NCBI GenBank assembly: GCA_003158365.1
Contig: PMIW01000235.1
Location: forward strand, 8,173 to 50,852
Reading direction: 5' to 3'
DNA: 42,680 nt
Origin: Ignavibacteriota bacterium
GTDB lineage: Bacteria; Bacteroidota; Ignavibacteria; Tepidaquicellales; Tepidaquicellaceae
In this document: positions 11,058 through 33,813 of the stretch, in pieces
How positions within the stretch are numbered: the stretch's first letter is position 1
How the letters are laid out: every line of letters starts with the position of its first letter
Notes under the pieces: model-generated
Databases searched by the model: none
Told to the model about the DNA's origin: nothing
What the model saw: only the letters and a program-made list of their open reading frames with translations
Position numbers and translations under genes: made by a program

Positions 11058-12023
11058 ATGCCTGAAAATTTGATTTCAATAATAATGCCAATTAAGAATG
11101 CGGAAAAATATATCCGTGATTCTATACAGAGCATATTAAACCAGACATATAAAAATTTTGAATTTATAATTATAGATGATGGCTCGACTGACGGTTCTCA
11201 AAAAATAATCGAATCAATAAAAGATGACAGGATTAAATTTTATAAAAAAGAAAGTGCAGGATTAATTGAACAGCTTAATTTCGGACTTGGCGAAGCAAAA
11301 GGTGAATTCGTAGCAAGGATGGACGCAGACGATACTGTAAGTCCGGAAAAACTTGAAATGCAGATTAATTATTTGCTGAATAATAAAGATATTCAGCTTG
11401 TCGGAACAAATTTTACTTTTATTGATGAGAACGGAAAATCAATTATGCCTAAAAAACTTCCCGAAGAACACAGGGATATTGAATTTATGATGCCGTTTAT
11501 AGATTCTGTTTTGCATTCTTCAATATTGACATATAAGAGTGTACTTATCGATTCCGGAGGATATGATAAAGAATATTATTCTGCGGAAGATGATGAACTG
11601 TTTTTGAGGTTGCTTTCTCTCGGATATAAAATGCATAATATTCAAAGGTCGCTTTATAGATACAGGCTGGTTGAGCGTCCGTCCGAATATTACGATATGC
11701 AAAAAATCAATTACTATAAATGCAGCATAAAATATCTTGATAATCATTACACTGAAAAAACAGGTGAGTATTACCTGAGGATGGGGCTGCTGGAATATTA
11801 CAGGGGTAGTATTAATAAATCAAGGGAACATCTCCTGAAATCACTTAAGTATAAGGGTATAAAAAGGAAATATTTTTTCCGTTATATTCCTGTCACTTTT
11901 TTGGGTGATAAAATCGTGAATTTCCTGAGAAAGAAAAAAATTTCTTCAAAGGTTAATTCCTATTTTAATAAAAAATTCAAATACGATACTTATAATATTT
12001 CGGGTTCGGATGTGAAAAAATGA
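11058..12023 (+). CDS. Glycosyltransferase family 2 (GT-A)
   Basis: This 321-residue enzyme has a complete GT2 domain: VSIIMPIKN-type first strand (SIIMPIKNAEKYI), DDGSTDGS at residues 40-47, the metal-binding DADD at 89-92 (MDADDTVSPEK) and an EDDELFLRL acceptor-side motif with E177-D178. After about residue 215 there is a roughly 100-residue helical, lysine- and tyrosine-rich tail, longer than in minimal GT2 proteins and with TPR-like spacing. The start ATG is one base after the preceding stop, and the end overlaps the GT9 gene by ATGA. It is a polysaccharide-building transferase of unknown specificity. Confidence 0.9.
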   Translation: MPENLISIIMPIKNAEKYIRDSIQSILNQTYKNFEFIIIDDGSTDGSQKIIESIKDDRIKFYKKESAGLIEQLNFGLGEAKGEFVARMDADDTVSPEKLEMQINYLLNNKDIQLVGTNFTFIDENGKSIMPKKLPEEHRDIEFMMPFIDSVLHSSILTYKSVLIDSGGYDKEYYSAEDDELFLRLLSLGYKMHNIQRSLYRYRLVERPSEYYDMQKINYYKCSIKYLDNHYTEKTGEYYLRMGLLEYYRGSINKSREHLLKSLKYKGIKRKYFFRYIPVTFLGDKIVNFLRKKKISSKVNSYFNKKFKYDTYNISGSDVKK

Positions 12024-18794: not shown

Positions 18795-21700
18795 ATGAAA
18801 AAGTTAATACTCGTTTTCATTTTTTTGGGATTTAACTTTTCCCTTGCACAAAATTACAACTGGATAACTCCCAATAAAGACTATCTTAAATTGTATGTAA
18901 TACAGGACGGTATTTACAGAATAAATAAAATCGATTTTGTAAATGCAGGCGTGAATCCCGCAAGTATTGACCCCCGCACAGTCAAAGTCTTTTCCAAAGG
19001 AAATCAAATTCCCGTTTTCTTCTATGGTGAAAGCGACGGCGTATTTAACGATACAGATTATTTCGATTTCTACGGACAGAGAAATTACGGCGGTTTGACA
19101 AATACTTATAAGGAGCAATCGGGCGCATCGGTTGTAGATTATGTTACGGATGAGTATTATAATATGTATTCCGATACAGGTGTTTACTGGGTAGGGTGGG
19201 ATGGTGCTCAGGGGCTCAGATATTCAGATTATACTTTTTCATCTAACGTTAATTTTCCCCAGAACTATTTTACACAAAACCTGCATTTTGAAAAAGATTC
19301 CATTTATTCGATGGGGATTACAGTAGATGCAGGGTCGGATTTCAGGTATTTCAATACGGAAAAAGTTACTCAGGAAGGTTGGTACTGGAGACAATTTGAA
19401 TCGTTTAACTATGTCTCGGACACTTTCAGTTTGCCTAATTTATCCGCAGTTCCGCAAACTTGCTCTATAAAGCTATTTGCTTATCCGAATTCATATCAGA
19501 GCAGCGGGCATTGCCTTATAATAAAAATTAATTCTACCAGATTAGATACAATCATCAGAACCGATTATAATAAATTCGATACGACAATTAACTTCCCGGG
19601 TTCATTGCTGTCTTCGACTTCTGTTAACAGAATTACAATTTCTTATACAACAAGAGATTTAAATAGCGGATATCTTTATTTTGATTACTACGCTTTAAAT
19701 TACCCGAATACATTTACATTTGTAAATAACCTGTTAAGTTTTAAAACAGGCATCGCCGACAGTACATCTAAAAAATTCAGAATTAACGGATTCGTAAATA
19801 ATGAAATAAATATCTATGATACAAAAAATAATCTGAGGATAGTTAATTATGTTACTTCAGCCGATACACTTGCTTTTACCGGCAAGGGGAATGGAAATTA
19901 CGAGTTAGTTAATAAATACAATACAACCAAACCATACAGGATAAAAAGAAAGCAGGTACCGAACCTTGCATCGGGTGCGAATGGGGCCGATTATCTTATA
20001 GTATATAATAAGCTGTTTGAATCATCCGCCGAGCAGTTAAGAGCTTACAGAAATTCACATGATAATTTCAGAAGTGTAAAAGCAGAAATCGAGGATGTCT
20101 ATGATATATTTAATTACGGGATGGAAGACCCTGTCGCAGTCAGGAATTTTGTGAGATATGCAAACGCAAACTGGCAGTCGCCTGCATTAAAATATCTCTG
20201 CCTGTTCGGAAGGGGTTCCGTAGATCCAAAGCAGATATTCGGTAATTCTGTTTACTATCAGAATTATGTTCCCGTTTACGGTAATCCCGCATCGGACGGA
20301 TATTTTGCAACTTTGAATCCGGGTACTTTTGTTTACTGTCCGCAGATTTCAGTCGGCAGAATTCCCGCTTACACATCTCAGGAAGCGCAGGATATTGTTA
20401 ATAAAATAATCGGTTACGAAAGCAATCCGCTGGATGTGTGGATAAAAAAAACAACATTGATTACAGGCGGATTTACATTTTCCGACCAGGTTCAGTTTAT
20501 TACGGCATCGAATAATCTTATAAATTCATATATTGCAGTTCCTCCGCCTGTCAGTTTTCCGCAAAGGATATACCGAACGGATACTTCGGGACAGGTTTCT
20601 TATAACTTCGAAGATTCAATAAAAAATACAATTAACAGGGGAACGCTGATTCTCAACTATATCGGTCACGCCGCCACATCAACCTGGGATAACGGTATAA
20701 GAGACCTGAATATTTTAAGCAACGGAAATAAAAATCCGTTAATATTCAGCATGACCTGTTTTACGGGCAAGAATGCATCGACTGATCCTGTTGACGGCAG
20801 GGGATTCGGTGAAAAGTTTTTGTATCTTCCCGGTAAAGGTGCAATAGGATTTATCGGAACAACAGGCTGGAGCTTCTTTCCCGGCGGCGGAAATACTTTA
20901 AACAGTTTTCTTTTTAAAAGTTTCGGAGCCGATAGTTTAAGGCGTATTGGCGATATACTGAAATCTGCCGAGACATATATGAAACTTCTCGATACGACTT
21001 CCTTTGTTAATAAAAACACTATAAACAGTTATAATCTTCTCGGTGACCCCGCATCGAAATTGAATATGCCCCCATATCCCGAATTTGATATTCAAATGAC
21101 CGATTATCAGCTGCTGCCGATATTTCCGTCTCTGCGCGAACCAATTACGCTTAAGCTCTTCCCGAAGAATCTCGGCACGAGAGCGGATTCCTGTAAAATC
21201 AGGTTCCAGCTTTTAAAAAATAATATCAGCAACAGGATAACGGATACGGTTGTAAGAAATTTTGATTTTGTAGATTCAATTAATTATAATTTTAGAATTG
21301 ATTCTGCGGGAATATATGTTATGAAAGTAATTCTCGATGTGGATAACTGGTATACAAGAGAGATTGAACAGAATAATACTATCTTTGTTCCGATACCCCT
21401 TAAAAACGTGGCATTTATTCCACTTAAGCCGGTCGATAATTCCGTCATACAGGGTGATTCGGTAACATTTGTTGGAATAAATCCGAACATAGACCCGAAG
21501 AAATATAATTTGAAAGTTTATGTTCAGTTCGATACGAGTATTTATTTCAATTCACCGTTGAACCGTATATTCTATAAAACCTGCGACTCGGGAGTGATTA
21601 CAAAATTCAAAGTTATACTGCCTGTTCTTGATACAAACAGGGTGTATTTCTGGAGAACAAATTCTGTAATAAATAATACCGATACGTCGGGTTGGACAAC

Positions 21701-23651
21701 TGCAAGCAGATTTCTTTATTTACCTTCTTTTATTTTTAGTGATAAAAGACCGCTGAAAAGTATTTCCGATTCTTCGGTTACGATTTATAAAAAATATGCT
21801 TCCCAATACAGTGTAACTGATTTGGGAAATACAATTACTGCACCCGACGGAATTAAATTAAGAAATTTTACAGGCGACCTGTTTGCTCAGTCCTGGGGAG
21901 GTGACCCGTGGGATGCTTCATTTTTCAGGGTAAACGGAAATGAAATATTTTTACTTGACCCGGTACTTCACTGGGGAGGGCTAAATATTATTAAGGTACG
22001 GAAGAATAACGGTGCCTATGTGGAATATAAACATTTTAAATTTACCGACCCTATTTCATCGGATTCAGTTATAAATTATTTAAATACTTTTAACAGCAAT
22101 TATATTCTTATGGTTGTTAAAAATGTGCAGAACGGTGTTACGGATTCAATTCGTCCGGCTCTGGTAAACAGGTTTCATGATTTTGGAAGTACAAAAATTG
22201 ATTCTGTGCATCTTATTTCTTATGACAGATGGAGTTTTATAAGTTATCCGACAAATACAGGAAACACTGTTGCTGAAAGTTTTCTTGCAAGCGGTACTCC
22301 AGATGCCCCGGCAATTTCCGCTATGGCGCCGCAGTTCCAATATGACAGCGGATATGTATTCCATAATTTTGGACCTGCATCGTTTTACAGGAATTTCTCA
22401 TGGAACCAGTTCCTGTTTCCATTCAGTTCACTCAGGTTCGATGTTTACGGAATTAACAGAGATAATCAGAACATATTGTTGTATTCCAATATAACATCAA
22501 ATAATAATTTCAGTCTTGATTCGCTGAAATCTTATATTTACCCGAATCTTCTGCTTAAAACGAAATTTAATATCGATTCAATAAACGGAACAACATCACC
22601 TGTATTACAGTCTCTAAAATTTAACTACGTACCGCCTGCGGAGCTTATTTCGGATAATTATTCATTTGTGAAAAGCGATACTGTCGTTCAGGAAGGCGAT
22701 TCCGTGCGGGTCAGCGTGAAATATTATAACGTGGGTTTTATTGGTGCTACTGCTTCCATAAATACATGGTCGGTCAGTTCTCCTACGGGTGTAAAGGTAT
22801 TAAGAACCGATACGGTAAATTTATATATGCCGGTTGACAGTTCGCTTCGTTCAGGTATTTTAATTAACACTTCGAGACTGAGAAATATTCAAAAGCCAAG
22901 AGACACCGTTTATATATTTTTTGAAACGAAACTGAAAAGCACAGAGAACGAATTTTATACTTATAACAACACCGCCATTACATCCGTTGTCGTTACGAGT
23001 GATTCGATAAATCCCTCGCTGGATGTGACTTATGACGGATTGAAAGTCCTTACGGGTGATTTTATCCAGTCTAAACCTGTAATAGTAGCAAAATTTCTCG
23101 ACGACAGCAAAATGCAGATAAGGGATACTTCCAATATCAGGGTTTATCTCGATACTCACTATGTGCCTTATTATTTAGGCGGGTTAAAAAATCCTGAAAT
23201 AGAAATAATATTCCCTGCAAATAAATTTCTTCAGGCGACAGTAGTTTATAAACCCACACTTTCAGATGGCGTGCACGATTTTATGTATGTTGCATACGAT
23301 TTATCTAATAATTATGCCGATACAATAAGATATTTCTTATCGGTGAACCCGGATTTGAAAATATATGATTTGAATACTTATCCTAACCCGATGAAAAACC
23401 AGACTAACTTTATGTTTAATTTATCAGGGAGTAATATACCTAATAATTCCAGGATTAAAATATATACTGTCGCAGGCAGACTGGTAAAGACTATCAGCTT
23501 TGTACCAAATATAGGATATAACCAGATTCAGTGGGACGGAAGAGATAATGACGGTGATTATATGGCAAACGGTGTGTACTTATATAAGCTTATAATCGAA
23601 GGAAACTCCAAAAAGGAAACTTCCATTCAAAAGCTTGTTATTTTGAAATAA
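18795..23651 (+). CDS. Giant PorU-like/gingipain-type C25 cysteine peptidase with sorting domain (copy 1)
   Basis: This 1618-residue secreted protein has a signal peptide (MKKLILVFIFLGFNFSLAQ). Residues about 20-110 match PorU-type N-terminal regions (DGIYRINKIDF, IDPRTVKV, DYFDFYGQRNYG). The C25 domain has catalytic His625 (NYIGHAATSTWD) and Cys655 (SMTCFTGKN), 30 residues apart as in gingipains, then GRGFGEKFL and GFIGTTGWSFFPGGG. About 800 residues of beta-rich modules follow. The end has a FlgD/T9SS-type sorting domain from Y1529 (YPNPMKNQT, RDNDGDYMANGVYLYKL). PorU cleaves cargo sorting domains and attaches cargo to A-LPS. Canonical PorU is much shorter, so this may be a paralogue that is itself cargo. 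It starts 14 bases after the GT26 gene. Confidence 0.85.
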   Translation: MKKLILVFIFLGFNFSLAQNYNWITPNKDYLKLYVIQDGIYRINKIDFVNAGVNPASIDPRTVKVFSKGNQIPVFFYGESDGVFNDTDYFDFYGQRNYGGLTNTYKEQSGASVVDYVTDEYYNMYSDTGVYWVGWDGAQGLRYSDYTFSSNVNFPQNYFTQNLHFEKDSIYSMGITVDAGSDFRYFNTEKVTQEGWYWRQFESFNYVSDTFSLPNLSAVPQTCSIKLFAYPNSYQSSGHCLIIKINSTRLDTIIRTDYNKFDTTINFPGSLLSSTSVNRITISYTTRDLNSGYLYFDYYALNYPNTFTFVNNLLSFKTGIADSTSKKFRINGFVNNEINIYDTKNNLRIVNYVTSADTLAFTGKGNGNYELVNKYNTTKPYRIKRKQVPNLASGANGADYLIVYNKLFESSAEQLRAYRNSHDNFRSVKAEIEDVYDIFNYGMEDPVAVRNFVRYANANWQSPALKYLCLFGRGSVDPKQIFGNSVYYQNYVPVYGNPASDGYFATLNPGTFVYCPQISVGRIPAYTSQEAQDIVNKIIGYESNPLDVWIKKTTLITGGFTFSDQVQFITASNNLINSYIAVPPPVSFPQRIYRTDTSGQVSYNFEDSIKNTINRGTLILNYIGHAATSTWDNGIRDLNILSNGNKNPLIFSMTCFTGKNASTDPVDGRGFGEKFLYLPGKGAIGFIGTTGWSFFPGGGNTLNSFLFKSFGADSLRRIGDILKSAETYMKLLDTTSFVNKNTINSYNLLGDPASKLNMPPYPEFDIQMTDYQLLPIFPSLREPITLKLFPKNLGTRADSCKIRFQLLKNNISNRITDTVVRNFDFVDSINYNFRIDSAGIYVMKVILDVDNWYTREIEQNNTIFVPIPLKNVAFIPLKPVDNSVIQGDSVTFVGINPNIDPKKYNLKVYVQFDTSIYFNSPLNRIFYKTCDSGVITKFKVILPVLDTNRVYFWRTNSVINNTDTSGWTTASRFLYLPSFIFSDKRPLKSISDSSVTIYKKYASQYSVTDLGNTITAPDGIKLRNFTGDLFAQSWGGDPWDASFFRVNGNEIFLLDPVLHWGGLNIIKVRKNNGAYVEYKHFKFTDPISSDSVINYLNTFNSNYILMVVKNVQNGVTDSIRPALVNRFHDFGSTKIDSVHLISYDRWSFISYPTNTGNTVAESFLASGTPDAPAISAMAPQFQYDSGYVFHNFGPASFYRNFSWNQFLFPFSSLRFDVYGINRDNQNILLYSNITSNNNFSLDSLKSYIYPNLLLKTKFNIDSINGTTSPVLQSLKFNYVPPAELISDNYSFVKSDTVVQEGDSVRVSVKYYNVGFIGATASINTWSVSSPTGVKVLRTDTVNLYMPVDSSLRSGILINTSRLRNIQKPRDTVYIFFETKLKSTENEFYTYNNTAITSVVVTSDSINPSLDVTYDGLKVLTGDFIQSKPVIVAKFLDDSKMQIRDTSNIRVYLDTHYVPYYLGGLKNPEIEIIFPANKFLQATVVYKPTLSDGVHDFMYVAYDLSNNYADTIRYFLSVNPDLKIYDLNTYPNPMKNQTNFMFNLSGSNIPNNSRIKIYTVAGRLVKTISFVPNIGYNQIQWDGRDNDGDYMANGVYLYKLIIEGNSKKETSIQKLVILK

Positions 23652-23711: not shown

Positions 23712-26700
23712 ATGAATCAAAAATTTTACTTTTTTATAATTCTTCTTATTGCTAATGTAACTTTCTCCCAGAATTACAACTGGATTACTCCCAATCAGCC
23801 GTACCTGAAAATGTATGTGGTTGATGACGGAATTTACAGAATCAATAAAATTGATTTTACTAATGCAGGCATAAACACCGCTGCAATCGACCCGAGAACC
23901 GTGAAAGTATATTACAAGGGAAACCAGATACCGATATTTTTTAACGGTGAGCAGGACGGGGTTATTGACGATACCGACTTTTTTGATTTTTACGGACAGA
24001 GAAATTACGGCGGTCTGACAAATACTTATAACAGTAATAACCAGGTAGTATATGTTACTGATGAATATAATGATTTATATTCCGACACAAGTGCATACTG
24101 GGTAGGATGGGGCGGAGCATACGGTACAAGATTTCAGAATTATAATTACACTTCCTATACTCTTTACCCGCTTGATTATTTTTACAAAAAATTACGCTAC
24201 GAAAAAGATTTAATTTATTCATACGGTGAGCAGATTAATGACCAGGACTACAGGAATTTTAACAACGAAAAATTTCAGGGTGAAGGCTGGTTCTGGATGG
24301 ATATGCTGTGGCAGAATACAATCTCGCAGACATTTACATCACCGCTGCTGTCAACTTCTCAGCCGTGTAAAGTTAAAATTTTTGCTTATCCGAAAAACCA
24401 GAGCTCGACCATTACAAATGAACATATGGTTGTGCTAAGCTTTAATAATAATCTGTTAGACACGCTTAAGGTAAATCATTTTGCAAGGTTCGATACTACA
24501 CTTTATTTTCCGTCTTCTTACCTGAATCCTTCTTCAAACAATACGGCAAAGGTTAAATATGCTCCGCCCGCAACATTTACCGAAGGTGAATTGTATTTTG
24601 ATATGTTCGAAATTTCCTATCCGAAGAGATTCGAATTTGATACTAATAAGGTAAGCTTTTCGACCGGCTCTGCCGATTCCACATCGAAGATTTTTAAAAT
24701 AAAAGGGTTTAATAACTCAAATCCAATCAGCATATATGATGTAAAGTACGGATACAGGATAACAAATTTCAATCTTTCTGCAGATACGCTTGTGTTTACA
24801 GGTAAAGGCGATGGTATATATGAAATCTTAAATAAATATATCACTAAAAAACCATTTAGGATTAAACAACGCCAGGTTCCTGCTTTAGCTTCTTCATCAA
24901 ACGGAGTTGATTACCTGGTCATCTATAATAAACTTTTCGAAACACAGGCGGAACAACTGAGAGCTTACAGAAACAGTCACGACGGTTTCAGGTCGGTAAA
25001 ATCAGAGATGGAAGATATTTATGATATATTTAATTATGGAATTGAAAATCCTGTAGCTGTCAGAAATTTTGTAAAATATGTTTATGATAACTGGACTCAG
25101 CCGAGAATATCTTATGTTTGCCTGTTTGGCAGAGGTTCTCTGGACCCGAAGAAAAATGCCGCAACATCTGTTTTCTACCAGAACTACGTTCCTGTATTCG
25201 GGAACCCGCCAACAGACGGGTATTTCGCGAATATGATTCCCGGAACTTTTTCTTATTATCATCAGCTTGGTATTGGCAGGCTTCCCGCTTTTACAATACA
25301 GGAAGCTCAGGATATGGTTAATAAAATTATTTCATATGAAAGCCAGCCGTTCGATACATGGTTTAAAAAATCCGTATTCGTTTCAGGAGGCTATAATGCA
25401 ACAGACCAGGGACAGTTCACGACACAATCGAATACATATCTTAATACGTATATTAATGTTCCTCCCTTGTCAATGGATGCTACAAAAATATTCCTGAAGG
25501 ATTCATCCGGACTGGTGACATTTAATTATTCGGATTCAATTAAAAATTCAATTAACAGGGGTGCATTGCTTGTAAGTTATATAGGGCATTCGGGAAATGG
25601 TTACTGGGATTATGCATATTCGGACCCCAATATATTAACAAACGGAAACAAACTTCCGCTTTTATTCAGCATGACCTGTTTCACGGGAAAGAATTCGGAA
25701 GCCAATGCACGGGGATTTGGAGAACAGTATTTAACCGCTCCCGGAAAAGGAGCAATAGGTTTTATCAGCACGACAGGCTGGAGTTTCTTCCCCGGCGGAG
25801 GAAATATTTTTGAACAGTTTTTCTTGACGGGTTTAAGTACGAACAATCTAAGAAGATTAGGTGATTTAATGAAATACGCTTCCACGACAATGGCACCCGA
25901 GTCGTTATATTTTGCTCAAAGAAATACCATAAACTGCTATAACCTTCTTGGTGACCCGGCATTGAAACTTTTGCTTCCGACCCATCCTGAATTTGACATT
26001 CAATTGACAGATTATATTTTATCAAACCCGTATTCTGTTGTAAGGGAAAATATTGTATTGAAAACATTTCCGAAAAATCTCGGTACTTATGCAGACTCCT
26101 GCAAAATAAGATTTCAGGTTTTGAGAAGTAACCAGAACCACAGCATAAAAGATACGATAATCCGGGGCTGGAGTTTCGTGGATACCGTTGTTTATAATTT
26201 TAAGCTGGATACAGTGGGAATTTACGGGATGAAAATAACGCTCGATGTTGATAACTGGTACCCTGCGGAATCAAAGCTGAATAACGTTATTACGTTTCCC
26301 CTTAATATAAAAAATACCGCATTTGTCCCGATTAAACCGATCGATAATATGATTATTAAAAGGGATACTGTTGAATTTGTCGGAATAAATCCTAACATTA
26401 ATACTTCGTCAAATACAGTCAGATTAATTGCACAAATAGATACATCGGTAACATTTACTTCTGCAATGACTCAGACTTATTTTAACAATAACATGACAGG
26501 GGCAGCCACAAAGTTTAAGGTCAGAATCCCTGTGCTCGATTCAAACATTGTTTATTACTGGAGGCTGAATGCAATCGTAAACAATGCCGATACACTGGGC
26601 TGGTCCGAAATCAGGAGGTTTAAATATAACACAACTCTGCCTCCGTCATTTTCTTCCAAAGGCAGTACAAAAATTAATTTGACCGATAACAGTTATGCTG

Positions 26701-28595
26701 ATTTACCGGGTGATTCAAATATTACTGTTTACAAAAATAAATTCGGACAGTATAATAATTATGAATTATCTTATATTGGCGGTGATAACAACGGGTTGAA
26801 AATTGTAAATTTGCAGGGTAGCCTTATTGCGAGTTCCTGGCAGGGCGATCCCTGGGCTCCGACTTATTATGCAGTTAATAATAATTATACATATCTCGTA
26901 AGGTCGCAAATAGATTGGAGCGGATTGGTTTTGGTTAAGGTGAATAAAACAAACGGATTCGTAATCGACACAAAACATATTTATATGTCTGACGCATCTT
27001 CATCGGATTCTGTATTAAACTTTTTAAATACTTTTGATGCAACGCATATACTTATGGCGGTAAAATTGATTCCAACTGCTTTAACGGTAAGTAATTTTAA
27101 TATTAACACAAAAAATAAATTCGTACAGTTCGGTAGTATTAAAGTTGATTCGGTGGAATTTTTAGCGTGGGACAGATGGAGCTTTATCAGCTATCCCAAT
27201 ACCCCGAATCCGGTTACGTCGGAAGGATACGACAATTCGAACGATATCCCCGTAAACAGCACTATGCAGCCTACATTCAAATTCATAAGCGGAAAAATTT
27301 ACCAGACATTCGGACCTGCTAAAACCTGGAAGAATTTTTCCTGGCAGCAGACTCTTTATCCCGGCACGACTATAAAATTCGACGTGTATGGCATAGACAG
27401 GTTTAACGCGGAAAATCTTGTAATGTCCGATATTGCTACAAACAGTAATGTTGACCTGCAGTCAATCAACGCATATACATATCCGAAATTAAAACTTGTT
27501 GCAAAATTAAATATAGATTCTATTACGGGTTCTCAGTCACCCGTGTTCCAGTCCTTAAAATTCAACTATGTCGCACCATCTGAGCTTGCACTGGATTATA
27601 ATACATTTATAAAATCCGATTCGCTGCTCAACGGCGGAGACAGCCTTGGCATTGCACTGGCATACTATAATGTCGGATATGTTGATTTATACGGCTATAC
27701 AAGGGATATATATTCATTCGATAATAACGGGCAGAGGGTACTTCTTAAATCCGAAACCAGCACGGCAACTCTAAAAATCGACAGCGTGAATTATGTAAAA
27801 ACAAATGTAAAGTTATCGGGTTTGCCTAATCTGAAAAAATACAATAATTATATTGTTCTGTATGTCGAAGCGACTCCTCTTATTCCTCAAAATGATTTAT
27901 ATGCATATAATAATATCACGACAACCAACATAGTTGTAAAAGGAACTTCACAAGTATACAGCCTCGAAATGTATTCCGACGGAACTAAAGTGAACGGTGG
28001 TGAATTCGTAAGAAATAAACCCGAAATGGAAGTTAAAATAAAAAATAAATCGGGAGTAAATGTAAATGCTTTCGATACATCCGATTTTAAATTATTTATA
28101 AATAATATTTACCAGCCGTATAATTCAAGAACAGCAAGCGGGATAAGAGTCGAGGGAAGCGATTTAAAATCGGGCGGTATATCGATAAGATTCAATCCGT
28201 CTTTGCCGATGGGAGAGAGCATTTTTAAACTGGTATCCAGAAAAAGTAACGGAGAGGATTTTGATACTTTAAAATATTCCGTCTTTGTCTCCAACCAGCT
28301 CTTGATTAAAGATTTATATAATTATCCGAACCCGATGAGAAACCAAACCGGATTTATTTTCAATCTCGGGGGAAATAATCCGCCGAGCGCCTGCAGAATA
28401 AAAATTTATACTGTATCCGGAAGACTTGTAAAGTTAATAAACTCGGCAGTGAACATCGGATTTAACCAGATTAACTGGGATGGACGCGATAACGAAGGCG
28501 ACTACATGGCAAACGGAGTTTACTTCTATATAATGACTATCGAAGGTGAAACAAAAATAGATTCACCAATACAAAAACTTGTAATATTAAAATAA
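23712..28595 (+). CDS. Giant PorU-like/gingipain-type C25 cysteine peptidase with sorting domain (copy 2)
   Basis: This 1627-residue protein is a full-length tandem paralogue of the preceding one. After the signal peptide (MNQKFYFFIILLIANVTFSQ) the two match closely: 17 differences in the first 86 aligned mature residues by hand count. The catalytic pair is conserved as His626 (SYIGHSGNGYWDYAY) and Cys656 (SMTCFTGKN). The sorting domain starts near Y1538 (YPNPMRNQT) and ends in the same PIQKLVILK tail. The middle, beta-rich part is more divergent, which suggests altered substrate or partner binding with retained catalysis. It lies 60 bases after copy 1 with no clear terminator between, so co-transcription is likely. 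A hairpin terminator follows it. Confidence 0.85.
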   Translation: MNQKFYFFIILLIANVTFSQNYNWITPNQPYLKMYVVDDGIYRINKIDFTNAGINTAAIDPRTVKVYYKGNQIPIFFNGEQDGVIDDTDFFDFYGQRNYGGLTNTYNSNNQVVYVTDEYNDLYSDTSAYWVGWGGAYGTRFQNYNYTSYTLYPLDYFYKKLRYEKDLIYSYGEQINDQDYRNFNNEKFQGEGWFWMDMLWQNTISQTFTSPLLSTSQPCKVKIFAYPKNQSSTITNEHMVVLSFNNNLLDTLKVNHFARFDTTLYFPSSYLNPSSNNTAKVKYAPPATFTEGELYFDMFEISYPKRFEFDTNKVSFSTGSADSTSKIFKIKGFNNSNPISIYDVKYGYRITNFNLSADTLVFTGKGDGIYEILNKYITKKPFRIKQRQVPALASSSNGVDYLVIYNKLFETQAEQLRAYRNSHDGFRSVKSEMEDIYDIFNYGIENPVAVRNFVKYVYDNWTQPRISYVCLFGRGSLDPKKNAATSVFYQNYVPVFGNPPTDGYFANMIPGTFSYYHQLGIGRLPAFTIQEAQDMVNKIISYESQPFDTWFKKSVFVSGGYNATDQGQFTTQSNTYLNTYINVPPLSMDATKIFLKDSSGLVTFNYSDSIKNSINRGALLVSYIGHSGNGYWDYAYSDPNILTNGNKLPLLFSMTCFTGKNSEANARGFGEQYLTAPGKGAIGFISTTGWSFFPGGGNIFEQFFLTGLSTNNLRRLGDLMKYASTTMAPESLYFAQRNTINCYNLLGDPALKLLLPTHPEFDIQLTDYILSNPYSVVRENIVLKTFPKNLGTYADSCKIRFQVLRSNQNHSIKDTIIRGWSFVDTVVYNFKLDTVGIYGMKITLDVDNWYPAESKLNNVITFPLNIKNTAFVPIKPIDNMIIKRDTVEFVGINPNINTSSNTVRLIAQIDTSVTFTSAMTQTYFNNNMTGAATKFKVRIPVLDSNIVYYWRLNAIVNNADTLGWSEIRRFKYNTTLPPSFSSKGSTKINLTDNSYADLPGDSNITVYKNKFGQYNNYELSYIGGDNNGLKIVNLQGSLIASSWQGDPWAPTYYAVNNNYTYLVRSQIDWSGLVLVKVNKTNGFVIDTKHIYMSDASSSDSVLNFLNTFDATHILMAVKLIPTALTVSNFNINTKNKFVQFGSIKVDSVEFLAWDRWSFISYPNTPNPVTSEGYDNSNDIPVNSTMQPTFKFISGKIYQTFGPAKTWKNFSWQQTLYPGTTIKFDVYGIDRFNAENLVMSDIATNSNVDLQSINAYTYPKLKLVAKLNIDSITGSQSPVFQSLKFNYVAPSELALDYNTFIKSDSLLNGGDSLGIALAYYNVGYVDLYGYTRDIYSFDNNGQRVLLKSETSTATLKIDSVNYVKTNVKLSGLPNLKKYNNYIVLYVEATPLIPQNDLYAYNNITTTNIVVKGTSQVYSLEMYSDGTKVNGGEFVRNKPEMEVKIKNKSGVNVNAFDTSDFKLFINNIYQPYNSRTASGIRVEGSDLKSGGISIRFNPSLPMGESIFKLVSRKSNGEDFDTLKYSVFVSNQLLIKDLYNYPNPMRNQTGFIFNLGGNNPPSACRIKIYTVSGRLVKLINSAVNIGFNQINWDGRDNEGDYMANGVYFYIMTIEGETKIDSPIQKLVILK

Positions 28596-28612
28596 GAAAA
28601 ATCTACCTTTAT

Positions 28613-28659
28613 ACTTCTTACTATATAATCAGCAATTTATAGTGAGAAGTCTCATTTTT
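28613..28659 (+). terminator. Hairpin terminator after the second C25 peptidase
   Basis: The arms 28613-28625 (ACTTCTTACTATA) and 28638-28650 pair over 13 bases with one G-U wobble around a 12-base loop, followed by CTCATTTTTA. It should end the long polysaccharide/C25 transcript and separate it from the LamG gene. The T-run is short and starts a few bases late. Confidence 0.65.
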
Positions 28660-28710
28660 ACACATCACTTATTTTGTAAGCATATCTGCTTAAATCATAG
28701 TTAGTTAACT

Positions 28711-28822
28711 ATGAGACAAACTTTAAAAAGTTCAATTTCACTGTAATTTCGAAGAAAAATTACGGTATGTTATTTGCAATAATAAGTTTAATTGAATAAA
28801 AAATTGAACAACAACAACAAAT
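28711..28822 (+). promoter_or_regulatory. Conserved leader element, copy A (upstream of LamG cargo gene)
   Basis: This leader shares ATGAGACAAA (28711-28720) and AATTACGGTAT (28758-28768) with the leader at 30941, with the same 47-base spacing in both. A CAACAACAACAAA run then sits directly before the start codon at 28823, with no Shine-Dalgarno sequence. ATGAGACAAA also opens an 11-codon reading frame (28711-28746, MRQTLKSSISL). The remainder of the 227-base gap holds the upstream terminator and nothing else I recognise. Confidence 0.6.
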
Positions 28823-30868
28823 ATGGTAAAAAAAGTAATGCTCTTCGCAATTGTAATTGTATTATTACAATTTTTACCTGCTGACTCGCAAACGACCAAT
28901 AACGCAATATTTTTAAATAACACAAACTTATCGACCAATAATGGATTTGTGTATCTCGGAGCTCCCGATTATCAACTAACTGATAAAATTACAATTTCAG
29001 TCTGGATAAAATGGAACGGTGATCCTCATATTTATACCGATATGAATGCTAATTATAAATGGGGAACTATTATTACAATGGACTGGGGTTATTATCCGTA
29101 TCATGATAACGGCATGTTCTGGTTACAACATTCAAGTGATAATAAAAAAATTGAATGGGCTGTTAAATCATCTACAAAAGGAAGATATTTCCTGCAGTCG
29201 AATACAACCCCCCTGAAGGATAAATGGTACTATATCACGGGTATATATGATGGTAATTCATCTGATACAACTATGAAATTATACATCAACGGTGTTCTTG
29301 AAAGCTTTGCATTAAACAATGCAGTTTCGGGAACTATTGTTCCAATGACATCTAATTACCGCCTGAATATCGGCAGAATTGCAGATGGTTATAGATTATT
29401 TTCGGGAAATATGGATGAACTCAGAATCTGGAAACGTGCATTAAGTTTTGGAGAAATTAATCAGCAAATGTATTCTAAATCAACAGTCAATCCGGCTAAT
29501 TTATTAAGCTATTATGATTTTGACCAGTCAACAGGTTCTACATTAGTCGATAAAGGTCCGGCGGGTGTTAACGGAAAATTTTATAACCAGTTACTCCAGG
29601 TTAATTCGATGAGCGGTTCACCTTCAATAAGTATTACCGACACTTCAAAATCCTGGACAACAGATGCTCTAAAAAACAGAACAATTAAAATCGTATCTGG
29701 TACAGGAATAGATGCAGGTTATATTATTGCAGGTAACACAAGTAACACAATTACTTTGACCATACCTTTTGCATCGGCTCCGACTATAAGCGGAAATACG
29801 AATATGACTCTGATTGGTGTTGAAGCTTCGCCCTCTGATGATTCGCTATGGTTAAGCTCGACGGCCCCGTTAAATACGGGAAACCTGAACGGCTATTCGA
29901 ATCTAAAAGGTGTGTGGAATGCGAATTCCGCAAATACTTCTTCGCTGGTTTCGATTTCTAATACAAATATTGGCGTTGATGAATATTTGCTTTTTGGAAA
30001 TGATGATGGTGCCCTGGCTTTTTCTGGACTTGATGTACCCGACAGCATTAACGGCAGGGTTACACGGGTATGGAAATTCCAGACAAATAAAATCGGCGGA
30101 GTTACGGGAAAAATCAGTATAGATTTTACTAATTTGAATATAGCTGACGCATCTAAACTTAGAATACTTGTTTCGCAGACAGGTACATTTGCAGCATCAG
30201 CATTATATATCGGAACCGTTGCAGGAACTACGGTGTCTATTAACAATATTTTAATACCCAATAATTCTTTCATAACTCTCGGCTCTAAAGAAGGGACTTT
30301 ACCTGTTGAACTGATTTCCTTTACGTCGGTTGTTAAAGACAGAAACGTAACTTTAAACTGGAAAACATCAAAGGAAATAAATAATAAAGGATTCGAAATT
30401 GAAAGAGCTTCTGAAAAAAATTCATCATACTGGGAAAAAATAGGCTATGTCAGCGGAAAAGGTACAACAAATGAATCCAGTCTTTATTTCTTTACAGACA
30501 GTAAATTAAATTCAGGAAAATATCATTTCAGGTTAAAACAAATCGATTACAACGGAATATTCACTTATTATAATTTAAATTCATTTGCGGAAATTGCTTT
30601 ACCCGGTAAATTTGAATTGCTGCAGAATTATCCGAACCCGTTCAACCCGGCAACGAAAATCGAATTTCAGATTTCAAATCAATCAGATGTAAGTATGACC
30701 ATTTGCGATATGTCAGGAAGACTTGTTTCCACACTTGTAAATAAAAACTTGCAGGCAGGGTATTATAAAATAGATTATAACGGCTCGAATCTATCAAGCG
30801 GTACATACTTCTGCATATTAAAAGCAGGCAATAATGTTAGTGTGAAGAAAATGGTTTTAGTAAAATAA
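28823..30868 (+). CDS. LamG-domain T9SS cargo protein
   Basis: This 681-residue secreted protein has a signal peptide ending near LPADSQ. Residues about 35-215 form a LamG/concanavalin A-like domain (DKITISVWIKWNGD, KWYYITGIYDG, TMKLYINGVLES, MDELRIWKRALSFGEI), usually a carbohydrate- or protein-binding fold. A beta-rich middle region spans about 220-490. A module starting GTLPVELISFTS (about 495-590) links to a T9SS type A sorting domain with NYPNPFNP at N602-P609 and the end VSVKKMVLVK. It should be exported by T9SS to the cell surface, where it may bind glycans. The last 86 residues differ from those of the next protein at only 15 positions. It has its own leader, so it is probably separately transcribed. 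Confidence 0.85.
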   Translation: MVKKVMLFAIVIVLLQFLPADSQTTNNAIFLNNTNLSTNNGFVYLGAPDYQLTDKITISVWIKWNGDPHIYTDMNANYKWGTIITMDWGYYPYHDNGMFWLQHSSDNKKIEWAVKSSTKGRYFLQSNTTPLKDKWYYITGIYDGNSSDTTMKLYINGVLESFALNNAVSGTIVPMTSNYRLNIGRIADGYRLFSGNMDELRIWKRALSFGEINQQMYSKSTVNPANLLSYYDFDQSTGSTLVDKGPAGVNGKFYNQLLQVNSMSGSPSISITDTSKSWTTDALKNRTIKIVSGTGIDAGYIIAGNTSNTITLTIPFASAPTISGNTNMTLIGVEASPSDDSLWLSSTAPLNTGNLNGYSNLKGVWNANSANTSSLVSISNTNIGVDEYLLFGNDDGALAFSGLDVPDSINGRVTRVWKFQTNKIGGVTGKISIDFTNLNIADASKLRILVSQTGTFAASALYIGTVAGTTVSINNILIPNNSFITLGSKEGTLPVELISFTSVVKDRNVTLNWKTSKEINNKGFEIERASEKNSSYWEKIGYVSGKGTTNESSLYFFTDSKLNSGKYHFRLKQIDYNGIFTYYNLNSFAEIALPGKFELLQNYPNPFNPATKIEFQISNQSDVSMTICDMSGRLVSTLVNKNLQAGYYKIDYNGSNLSSGTYFCILKAGNNVSVKKMVLVK

Positions 30869-30940
30869 AACCGCAGCATTCTCATTATGATACTAAACGG
30901 AATTGATAATATTGAAGATCAAAAACGGAGTATAAAAACT

Positions 30941-31041
30941 ATGAGACAAATTAGAAAAAGCCTCATATTGAGCTATTATTCAACATTAATTACGGTATAG
31001 TAATTGTAATATATATTGTACAACAAACAACAACAACAATT
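30941..31041 (+). promoter_or_regulatory. Conserved leader element, copy B (upstream of repeat-rich cargo gene)
   Basis: It contains ATGAGACAAA (30941-30950) and AATTACGGTAT (30988-30998), again 47 bases apart, then CAACAAACAACAACAACAA (31021-31039) directly before ATG at 31042. ATGAGACAAA opens a 19-codon reading frame (30941-31000, MRQIRKSLILSYY...). That frame differs in length from copy A, so the nucleotide motif rather than a peptide seems to be conserved. Confidence 0.6.
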
Positions 31042-33813
31042 ATGATTAACAGGAACAACTCAAACAACACAAGTAAAAATAATCTTGTAATAACAGTTTT
31101 ATTATTAGTATTATTAACAATCTCATCGAACGCTTTTTCACAAACAACAGGTGATTACAGGTCAAACGGAAATGTTAATTTCACTTCGGCAAGTAACTGG
31201 CAGATGTATAACGGTTCGCAATGGGTAAACGCAGCAACGGTACCCCCGTTAAGCAGCGGAGTTACCACAGTCACAAATTATACAGTTATCGATGCAAGCA
31301 TAAATATTGCAGGAACACTGAATATAGGAGCCACGGTAAATTCAAGTAATAATCCAACAATAAATGTTACAGGAAATCTTAATATTTATAACGGCAGCGG
31401 TTTGTACTTAACAGGTAATGTAAATGTATTATCAGCAGGCACTATGACAATCAATGGTCAGTTTAATTTCTCCGGCGGGAATTTAAATATTTCAGGTAAT
31501 TTCATAGTCTCGGCGACAGGACAGAATTATTGCAGTGGAAATGTAATCGTTTTGGCTGGCGGAATACTTGCAAATAATAATATTTTTCAGTCGGGTACTT
31601 ATCTTGAAATCAATGGGACTCTCCAGACAAACGGAACCAGTTTTTATAACGGCGGCAATACAATAGTTAAAAACGGCGGATTGTTGGATTATAATCAGGA
31701 TGGTAATTCAGGCAGCATTCCTGTTGCAACATGGAATACAGGTTCTACTTTAAAGATTTCCGGAATTGTTGGTACAGTTCCTCAATATCTGAACCAGTCA
31801 TTTTATAATTTAACGTGGGACTGCGCATCACAGGGACAGGATTTTAATCTATATGATGTAATTACTAATATTAACGGAAGCCTTAGCATTTCAAATACAA
31901 ACGGAAAAAATCTACAGTTTTTTAACTATAACTCCAATACTTTAAATGTCAGCGGAGATTTAAACATATCTGGTAATTCTAAAGTAGTACTCGGCGGCGG
32001 AGGTACAAACAAAGTTGTGTTAAACGTATCAGGAAATTACACACAGTCTAATGGAACTCTTGATATTGGTTATAGTAACAACGGGTTTAATTTAAAGGGA
32101 AACTTTACTTCTTCAGGCGGAAAAGTAATCAGGTCTTTGGGTTCGGGAAAAATAAATTTTAATGGAGTTGCAACACAGTACTTTACATCTACAAATCCGG
32201 GCGAAACATCAAACGGTGTTAATTTTGAAGTAGCAAGAAATTCCACACTTGTATTAAATACTGATATGAAAGTTCTTGGAAATAATGCGAATACAAATTC
32301 ATATATTTATGGCAAACTTGATTTGAATAATCATAATATTTCTATGAGTTTTTATATGGAAATTTATACAACGGGAATTTTAAAAACGGGTACCGGAATA
32401 ATCTCCACTCCCGATGCATCTTTAAACGATTTTAAACTCGATGACGGCGGAACAATTTATATTGGTTCACCAAACGGCATTACAACATCGGGACAAACAG
32501 GAAATATTCAGCTTAAAGGAAATAGAACTTTCGGTACAGGCGCTAATTATATTTATAACGGAACCGCAAACCAGGTAACCGGTAACGGCTTACCTTCGGT
32601 AATAAGCGGAAACCTTACAATACAGAGCGGGCAGGAGCTTGCCTTCAGCACTAACGAAACAGTAAGTGGTACAATTAACCTGACAAGCGGTTTGATTAAT
32701 ATGGGAGCAAATACTCTTATACTTTCTAATTCCGCAATAAATTCTCTTGCTTTCACTTCCGGTTATGTCAGCGGAAAATTCCAGAGAGCTATTGCAGGCA
32801 ATACAACAGGACAATATTTATTCCCGCTTGGCGTCAGCAGTTCTTTGAGCAGAGTATTAACCCTGAATATATTAACAGGCACTTCGACTGCTGGGAATAT
32901 TACTACGGAATTCAACTCGTCCGATGCAGGCGGTTTTTCAGTACCTTTAAATGATAACGGTTATACCGTCGATACATACAGCAAGGAAGGATACTGGAAA
33001 TTAACACCTGTTACAATTACAGGAATGAATTACAAACTTTCACTTGAAGCAAAATCAATTGGCGGTGTCCAGAACCCGGCATCATTAAGAATTCTTGAAC
33101 GCATAGCATCGGTGTGGTCGGTACAGGGAACACATGTTAACGGAACCGGCATCGTTTCCGACCCTACGGCAAACAGAACAGGATTAACATTATTCGGTGA
33201 TTATGTAATAGCAGGTAATTCCTCGGAAAATACACTTACAGGTACTTTACCTGTTGAAATGAAATCTTTCACTTCAGGTGTAAAAGACAATTCTGTGAAT
33301 TTGAACTGGAGCACAACAAGTGAAATTAACAACCTTGGATTTGATATAGAGCGCACTGATAACATAAATACAAGTTGGTCGAAAATCGGGTTTGTAAAAG
33401 GTAACGGAACTTCGACTCATATCAATAATTATAATTTCTCTGATACAAAACTTCAGACAGGAAAATATCATTACCGCCTGAAACAGGTAGATTTTAACGG
33501 CAACTTCGAATATTACAATCTGCAGAACGAGATATCAATTTCTACTCCCGATAAATTTAATCTTTCACAGAATTTTCCGAACCCGTTCAACCCTGCAACG
33601 AAGATAGAATTCCAGATCTCAAATCAGTCTGATGTAAACCTGACAGTCTTCGATATATCGGGAAGACTGGTTTCCACATTGGTTAACAAAAATCTACAGG
33701 CAGGATATTACAAAATAGAATTTGACGGCTCGAAACTCTCGAGCGGTACATATTTCTACACACTTAAGGCAGATAATAATGTAAGCGTAAAAAAAATGGT
33801 ATTAGTAAAATAA
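31042..33813 (+). CDS. Asn/Gly-rich beta-repeat T9SS cargo protein
   Basis: This 923-residue secreted protein has an unusual Asn-rich N-region (MINRNNSNNTSKNN) before the hydrophobic signal segment ending SNAFSQ. Residues about 90-250, and parts up to about 560, repeat short units such as GNLNIYNGSGLYLTGNVNV and GNLNISGNF, suggesting a right-handed beta-helix or solenoid as in adhesins. Residues about 735-840 are a GTLPVEMKSFTSG module, and a T9SS sorting domain starts at N844 (NFPNPFNPATK) and ends VSVKKMVLVK. No enzyme motif is seen; an adhesive or structural surface role is inferred. The C-terminal modules are near-copies of those in the upstream LamG protein, indicating duplication of a gene end. 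A perfect terminator follows. Confidence 0.82.
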   Translation: MINRNNSNNTSKNNLVITVLLLVLLTISSNAFSQTTGDYRSNGNVNFTSASNWQMYNGSQWVNAATVPPLSSGVTTVTNYTVIDASINIAGTLNIGATVNSSNNPTINVTGNLNIYNGSGLYLTGNVNVLSAGTMTINGQFNFSGGNLNISGNFIVSATGQNYCSGNVIVLAGGILANNNIFQSGTYLEINGTLQTNGTSFYNGGNTIVKNGGLLDYNQDGNSGSIPVATWNTGSTLKISGIVGTVPQYLNQSFYNLTWDCASQGQDFNLYDVITNINGSLSISNTNGKNLQFFNYNSNTLNVSGDLNISGNSKVVLGGGGTNKVVLNVSGNYTQSNGTLDIGYSNNGFNLKGNFTSSGGKVIRSLGSGKINFNGVATQYFTSTNPGETSNGVNFEVARNSTLVLNTDMKVLGNNANTNSYIYGKLDLNNHNISMSFYMEIYTTGILKTGTGIISTPDASLNDFKLDDGGTIYIGSPNGITTSGQTGNIQLKGNRTFGTGANYIYNGTANQVTGNGLPSVISGNLTIQSGQELAFSTNETVSGTINLTSGLINMGANTLILSNSAINSLAFTSGYVSGKFQRAIAGNTTGQYLFPLGVSSSLSRVLTLNILTGTSTAGNITTEFNSSDAGGFSVPLNDNGYTVDTYSKEGYWKLTPVTITGMNYKLSLEAKSIGGVQNPASLRILERIASVWSVQGTHVNGTGIVSDPTANRTGLTLFGDYVIAGNSSENTLTGTLPVEMKSFTSGVKDNSVNLNWSTTSEINNLGFDIERTDNINTSWSKIGFVKGNGTSTHINNYNFSDTKLQTGKYHYRLKQVDFNGNFEYYNLQNEISISTPDKFNLSQNFPNPFNPATKIEFQISNQSDVNLTVFDISGRLVSTLVNKNLQAGYYKIEFDGSKLSSGTYFYTLKADNNVSVKKMVLVK

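Follow-up and report, generated by a model that had tools for sequence, protein, structure and literature searches.

The leaders of two neighbouring type IX secretion cargo genes each very probably consist of a sigma-54 promoter preceded by upstream activator site (UAS) dyads, and their sequences suggest that this module serves a subset of type IX cargo genes under the control of an enhancer-binding protein (EBP). Both genes lie on the plus strand of the 42,680-nucleotide stretch of an Ignavibacteriota genome analysed here (the window; coordinates refer to it unless a locus is named). The first encodes a LamG-domain cargo protein of 681 amino acids (28823..30868) and the second a repeat-rich cargo protein of 923 amino acids (31042..33813). 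An earlier note on this DNA had described them as surface-protein genes with sorting domains, in agreement with the Por_Secre_tail domain found above the Pfam cut-off in each.

The two leaders share a pair of sequence islands at an invariant distance. ATGAGACAAA occurs at 28711 and 30941 and AATTACGGTAT at 28758 and 30988, so that the previously reported offset of 47 bases is indeed present in both leaders; none of 100 dinucleotide shuffles produced the pair at this offset. The upstream island is identical over 14 bases, AACTATGAGACAAA (28707/30937), and is therefore longer than had been noted, and the stretch between the islands is as poorly conserved as described, with 17 of 37 positions identical. 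Two further common elements had been missed: TCTCATT, at 28650/30880, and TAnTTGnAATA, located 3' of the second island in both leaders. One ungapped register (offset 2230) holds AACTATGAGACAAA, AATTACGGTAT, TAnTTGnAATA and TCTCATT. Given the overall level of matching, two identical runs of such length would arise under uniform decay with a post hoc probability of 0.0005-0.0016. The two leaders probably also descend from a duplication, after which the functional elements would have been retained while the spacers diverged.

A search of the genome for the exact leader string, as the earlier note had proposed, returned the two window copies but no third copy. Two matches were found in 29 genomes of the family, both seemingly unrelated, a search of the order likewise gave no more than the two window copies or scattered chance matches, and the string was absent elsewhere in 391 genomes of the class. 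Among 84,980 GTDB species there were four matches, all in unrelated bacteria and near the chance expectation, and a BLAST search of the leader against its own genome recovered the second copy and AT-rich noise only. By the reasoning of the earlier note, a string found only twice would speak against a shared element, and homologous genes were therefore examined instead. In place of AATTACGGTAT, homologous cargo genes carry GGCACGTTAATTGCA (own genome, contig C243), GGCATAAGAATTGTA (the congener G009) and GGCATGAAAATTGCA (G004), all of which are, judged by sequence, sigma-54 -24/-12 boxes. The exact string proved too narrow a test, because the other members share two functional elements rather than the string itself or its 47-base spacing; the expectation of further copies failed for the string.

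In the window, AATTACGGTAT and the bases that follow it form a sigma-54 -24/-12 promoter, GGTATGTTATTTGCA in copy 1 and GGTATAGTAATTGTA in copy 2. The copy 1 promoter (28764..28778, plus strand) has its -24 GG at 28764, with the -24 end within AATTACGGTAT, and its -12 GC at 28776; the copy 2 promoter (30994..31008, plus strand) has its -24 GG at 30994 and a -12 GT at 31006. Ten bases separate GG from GC or GT in both copies, copy 1 being exact and copy 2 carrying GT instead of GC. The genome encodes a single RpoN with all three Sigma54 domains (PF04552, E=1e-53, together with CBD and AID) and eight strong PF00158 proteins, that is, EBPs of the Sigma54_activat class, most of which contain receiver domains. 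Upstream of 120 sorting-domain genes, the core pattern GGYAY-N5-TTGYW was matched ten times in the sense orientation (three of these within coding sequence) and once in antisense, compared with one to three sense matches at wrong spacings. Generic scoring against the textbook sigma-54 consensus failed to distinguish sense from antisense matches, whereas the fixed-spacing core pattern did so.

ATGAGACAAA represents half of a candidate UAS with the consensus GTCTCA-N3-TGAGAC. On the plus strand of copy 1, a distal dyad GTCTCATTTTTACAC (28649..28663; 10/12 matches to the consensus) is accompanied at a distance of 54 bp by a proximal half-site AGTTAACTATGAGAC (28703..28717; 8/12) that overlaps ATGAGACAAA. 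Copy 2, on the same strand, has the corresponding distal dyad TTCTCATTATGATAC (30879..30893; 10/12), again 54 bp from a proximal half-site TAAAAACTATGAGAC (30933..30947; 7/12) overlapping the ATGAGACAAA island, and an additional dyad GCCTCATATTGAGCT (30960..30974; 9/12) within the less conserved stretch. In the window leaders, the distal dyad, which holds TCTCATT, lies 115 bp before the -24 GG and the proximal half-site, which holds ATGAGACAAA, 61 bp before it; dimeric activator sites of sigma-54 promoters are located about 50-200 bp upstream. Since ATGAGACAAA resides in the proximal half-site, upstream of the -24 GG, the invariant 47-base spacing corresponds to a distance between activator site and promoter. 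The weak points are the GT at -12 in copy 2 and the proximal sites, which in both copies are half-sites only (7-8/12). An enumeration of all palindromic words and gaps put TCTCA-N3-TGAGA first as the most widespread, present in 12 of 14 sigma-54 cargo promoters; in 60 shuffles the maxima for palindromic words were 8-11, with 11 reached once. The dyads upstream of module promoters often occur in tandem, spaced by 19-21, 54 or 62-63 bp, near whole helical turns.

Dyad and promoter are also coupled beyond the window. For 40 non-redundant dyads (at least 10/12, gap of 3) collected from about 1.2 Mb of chosen stretches of the own genome and its relatives, a sigma-54 site was present within 25-245 bases in 27 cases, versus 3 of 83 for dyads with gaps of 0, 1, 2, 4, 5 or 6 (p=3e-14; like the p-values that follow, somewhat optimistic, since some of the promoters counted had also served to define the motif). 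All 12 dyads matching at 11/12 or better had a sigma-54 site beside them, and none had the N4 control. In the own genome and the congener, the composite of dyad and promoter preceded 10 of 159 sorting-domain genes as opposed to 3 of 632 other genes (p=1.4e-5; own genome p=0.0018, congener p=0.0006), and most cargo genes are without the module. The independent part of this evidence, which lessens that optimism, comprises the controls with wrong spacing and four loci found later, L264, L279, L108 and L286. At L279 (G009:C18, 14914-15090), one dyad pair is common to two divergent sigma-54 promoters, one before a cargo gene and the other before a gene whose small product is lipoprotein-like.

Orthologues of the LamG gene in G004, G009 and G019 (35-38% protein identity) retain dyads and sigma-54 boxes in all three cases found. 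Inspection of the region upstream of the G004 homologue of the 923-residue gene (60% identical) revealed no module, and a blind test for the strict composite in stretches of other genera gave 0 of 61 cargo genes; the regulon therefore appears to be a subset of cargo genes and patchy across genera. In one further genus (G003), almost perfect tandem dyads, spaced by 20 bp, precede two more genes for secreted proteins, together with TGGCAC...TTGAA/TTGAT boxes. One of these loci (L286, G003:C69, ~11444-11478) has two perfect GTCTCATTATGAGAC dyads, 20 bp apart, together with a TGGCACG...TTGAT box; they precede a gene for a secreted protein of 258 amino acids in which no sorting domain was detected.

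Sigma-54 promoters usually initiate transcription about 12 bases downstream of the -12 box. On this basis, the predicted 5' UTRs extend over 28789..28822 in copy 1 and 31019..31041 in copy 2 (both plus strand), are unstructured, and each hold the CAA tract CAACAACAACAA; we infer that the tract would be transcribed as part of the leader in both copies. As the earlier note had pointed out, CAACAACAACAA (28809-28820 and 31028-31039) stands just ahead of the ATG of each gene (28823 and 31042), at a distance of two bases, and no Shine-Dalgarno site is visible in either leader. The tract is off the register of the islands, beginning 51 versus 40 bases after the start of AATTACGGTAT, and is instead anchored to the start codon. 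Similar tracts occur in two other module genes, L240 (CAACAACAAAACAACAACAATG) and L182 (AACAACAACAAAAAAATG), and several others have G-rich, Shine-Dalgarno-like leaders instead of CAA. The sigma-54 cargo leaders at L141, L166, L170, L206 and L279 contain G-runs (GGGGG) or GGAGG-like sites. CAA as opposed to G-rich leaders suggests that a single regulon uses two modes of translation start. The unstructured predicted UTR suits the initiation without Shine-Dalgarno sites described for Bacteroidetes (PMC6847099).

Taken together, these elements suggest the following mechanism. An EBP of the Sigma54_activat class would bind the GTCTCA-N3-TGAGAC dyads, which here precede the -24 GG by 61 and 115 bp. 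By looping, it would reach the RNA polymerase-sigma-54 complex at the GG-N10-GC promoter, which it would open at the expense of ATP. Transcription from about 12 bases after the -12 element would then yield a short, unstructured, CAA-rich 5' UTR that is translated without a Shine-Dalgarno site, and a single EBP, acting through the common module of dyad and promoter, would turn on a group of surface or secreted proteins. Binding, activation, transcription start and the action of one EBP on all members are inferred from DNA sequence. The same apparent switch before other secreted-protein genes, here and in relatives, points to one dedicated activator for a set of surface proteins; with moderate confidence, we favour a dedicated sigma-54 regulon of type IX cargo under a previously undescribed EBP that reads GTCTCA-N3-TGAGAC in this Bacteroidota-like family. 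If so, a sensed signal (most of the EBPs have receiver domains) would turn on the whole surface-protein coat at once. A dyad at its own promoter might have pointed to the EBP, but none was found upstream of the EBP gene at any EBP locus.

The leaders could instead reflect a recent duplication and nothing else, the islands being functionless chance survivors of uniform decay. The confinement of the exact string to these two adjacent genes, both in the genome and among the 391 genomes of the class, speaks for this explanation, as do the unrelated hosts of the four GTDB matches, the single ungapped register with more similarity beyond the motifs, and the occurrence of the exact CAACAACAACAA before ATG in no other leader of the genome. 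We nonetheless regard it as improbable: the islands coincide with correctly spaced elements that recur ahead of unrelated cargo genes, both in this genome and in other genera, and two runs of this length are rare under uniform decay. Duplication may be the origin of the leaders but leaves the islands unexplained, and the earlier proposal of a regulatory element, rather than recent duplication alone, is supported, since the islands' elements recur together, as a module, ahead of further type IX cargo genes.

That proposal had left the choice between a protein-binding and an RNA element. A cis-acting RNA in the transcribed leader (riboswitch, thermometer or leader peptide) would be compatible with the fixed spacing of the islands, and copy 2 has a possible 19-codon frame running from ATGAGACAAA. 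Such an element is very unlikely, as the leaders have no Rfam match, their folds differ from each other and are no better than those of shuffles (z -1.57 and -0.78), and transcription is predicted to start downstream of both islands; a leader peptide was rejected because the 19-codon frame is interrupted by a stop in copy 1. Of the two options, the protein-binding one is well supported, in the form of the sigma-54 promoter and the dyad half-site, and the RNA one is not. It is equally hard to credit that the TCTCA/TGAGA dyad is an ordinary operator of a housekeeping-sigma promoter next to an incidental GG-N10-GC. The dyad is a typical dimer site and copy 2 has less than ideal sigma-54 boxes, but the association of the dyad with correctly spaced sigma-54 boxes is strong (27/40 versus 3/83), and the sigma-A -7 box TAnnTTTG occurs neither in 28596-28822 nor in 30869-31041.

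The sigma-54 module resembles known systems in part. In Flavobacterium psychrophilum, sigma-54 (SM4) promoters, the bases of which were validated by mutagenesis, include that of the remFG-sprCDBF operon encoding the type IX substrate SprB; three EBPs might divide these promoters between them, and the accessible portion of that report gives no activator-binding site (PMC9723704). As here, these are -24/-12 promoters of Bacteroidota before genes for exported proteins; the present set differs, as far as the same portion goes, in its specific dyad GTCTCA-N3-TGAGAC and in consisting mainly of Por_Secre_tail cargo genes. More generally, sigma-54 and its EBPs control how bacteria interact with their environment, and also their surface structures (Francke et al. 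2011, PMC3162934), a theme of exterior control that applies likewise here, although type IX cargo and a GTCTCA-N3-TGAGAC operator are unmentioned in the sections available. The PorY-PorX-SigP system of Porphyromonas gingivalis also ties dedicated transcriptional control to type IX secretion, but through an ECF sigma factor acting on machinery genes, whereas here sigma-54 would act on cargo (PMC4800418). At the level of translation, Flavobacterium johnsoniae uses Kozak-like starts that lack Shine-Dalgarno sites, and in Bacteroidetes leaders the structure of the mRNA and the bases close to the start codon modulate initiation; the window leaders likewise have no Shine-Dalgarno site, but the regular CAA tract, seen here in a few sigma-54 cargo leaders, is not described in the available parts of that study (PMC6847099). 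The literature searched, with partial coverage, described neither a GTCTCA-N3-TGAGAC activator site nor a cargo regulon based on one. Surface features and a type IX substrate operon are already known targets of sigma-54; within that coverage, the activator site is new.

Type IX secretion serves a great many proteins in a single genome, yet, to our knowledge, little is known about what decides when each type IX cargo is produced. For part of this cargo, the module provides an address that can be read and tested: a sigma factor, a consensus for the activator site, and a list of target genes and their orthologues. It makes the search for the activator and its signal experimentally tractable. It also connects cargo genes of another lineage with a mode of control, by sigma-54, that is known from one Flavobacterium surface-adhesin operon.

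The 3.0 Mb draft genome contains at least 150 type IX sorting domains, a large secreted repertoire. The presence of such domains suggests a relative of the Bacteroidota. Just upstream of the two cargo genes, two adjacent similar genes for proteins of ~1620 amino acids (18795-23651 and 23712-28595) encode Peptidase_C25 (gingipain family), ILEI-like and FlgD_ig domains, with no good dyad nearby. At another locus of this genome (L113, G000:C80, 1045-2181), a gene directly 3' of a type IX cargo gene and 5' of one resembling that of an HPt phosphotransfer protein encodes an EBP that has receiver and AAA domains but in which no helix-turn-helix was detected.
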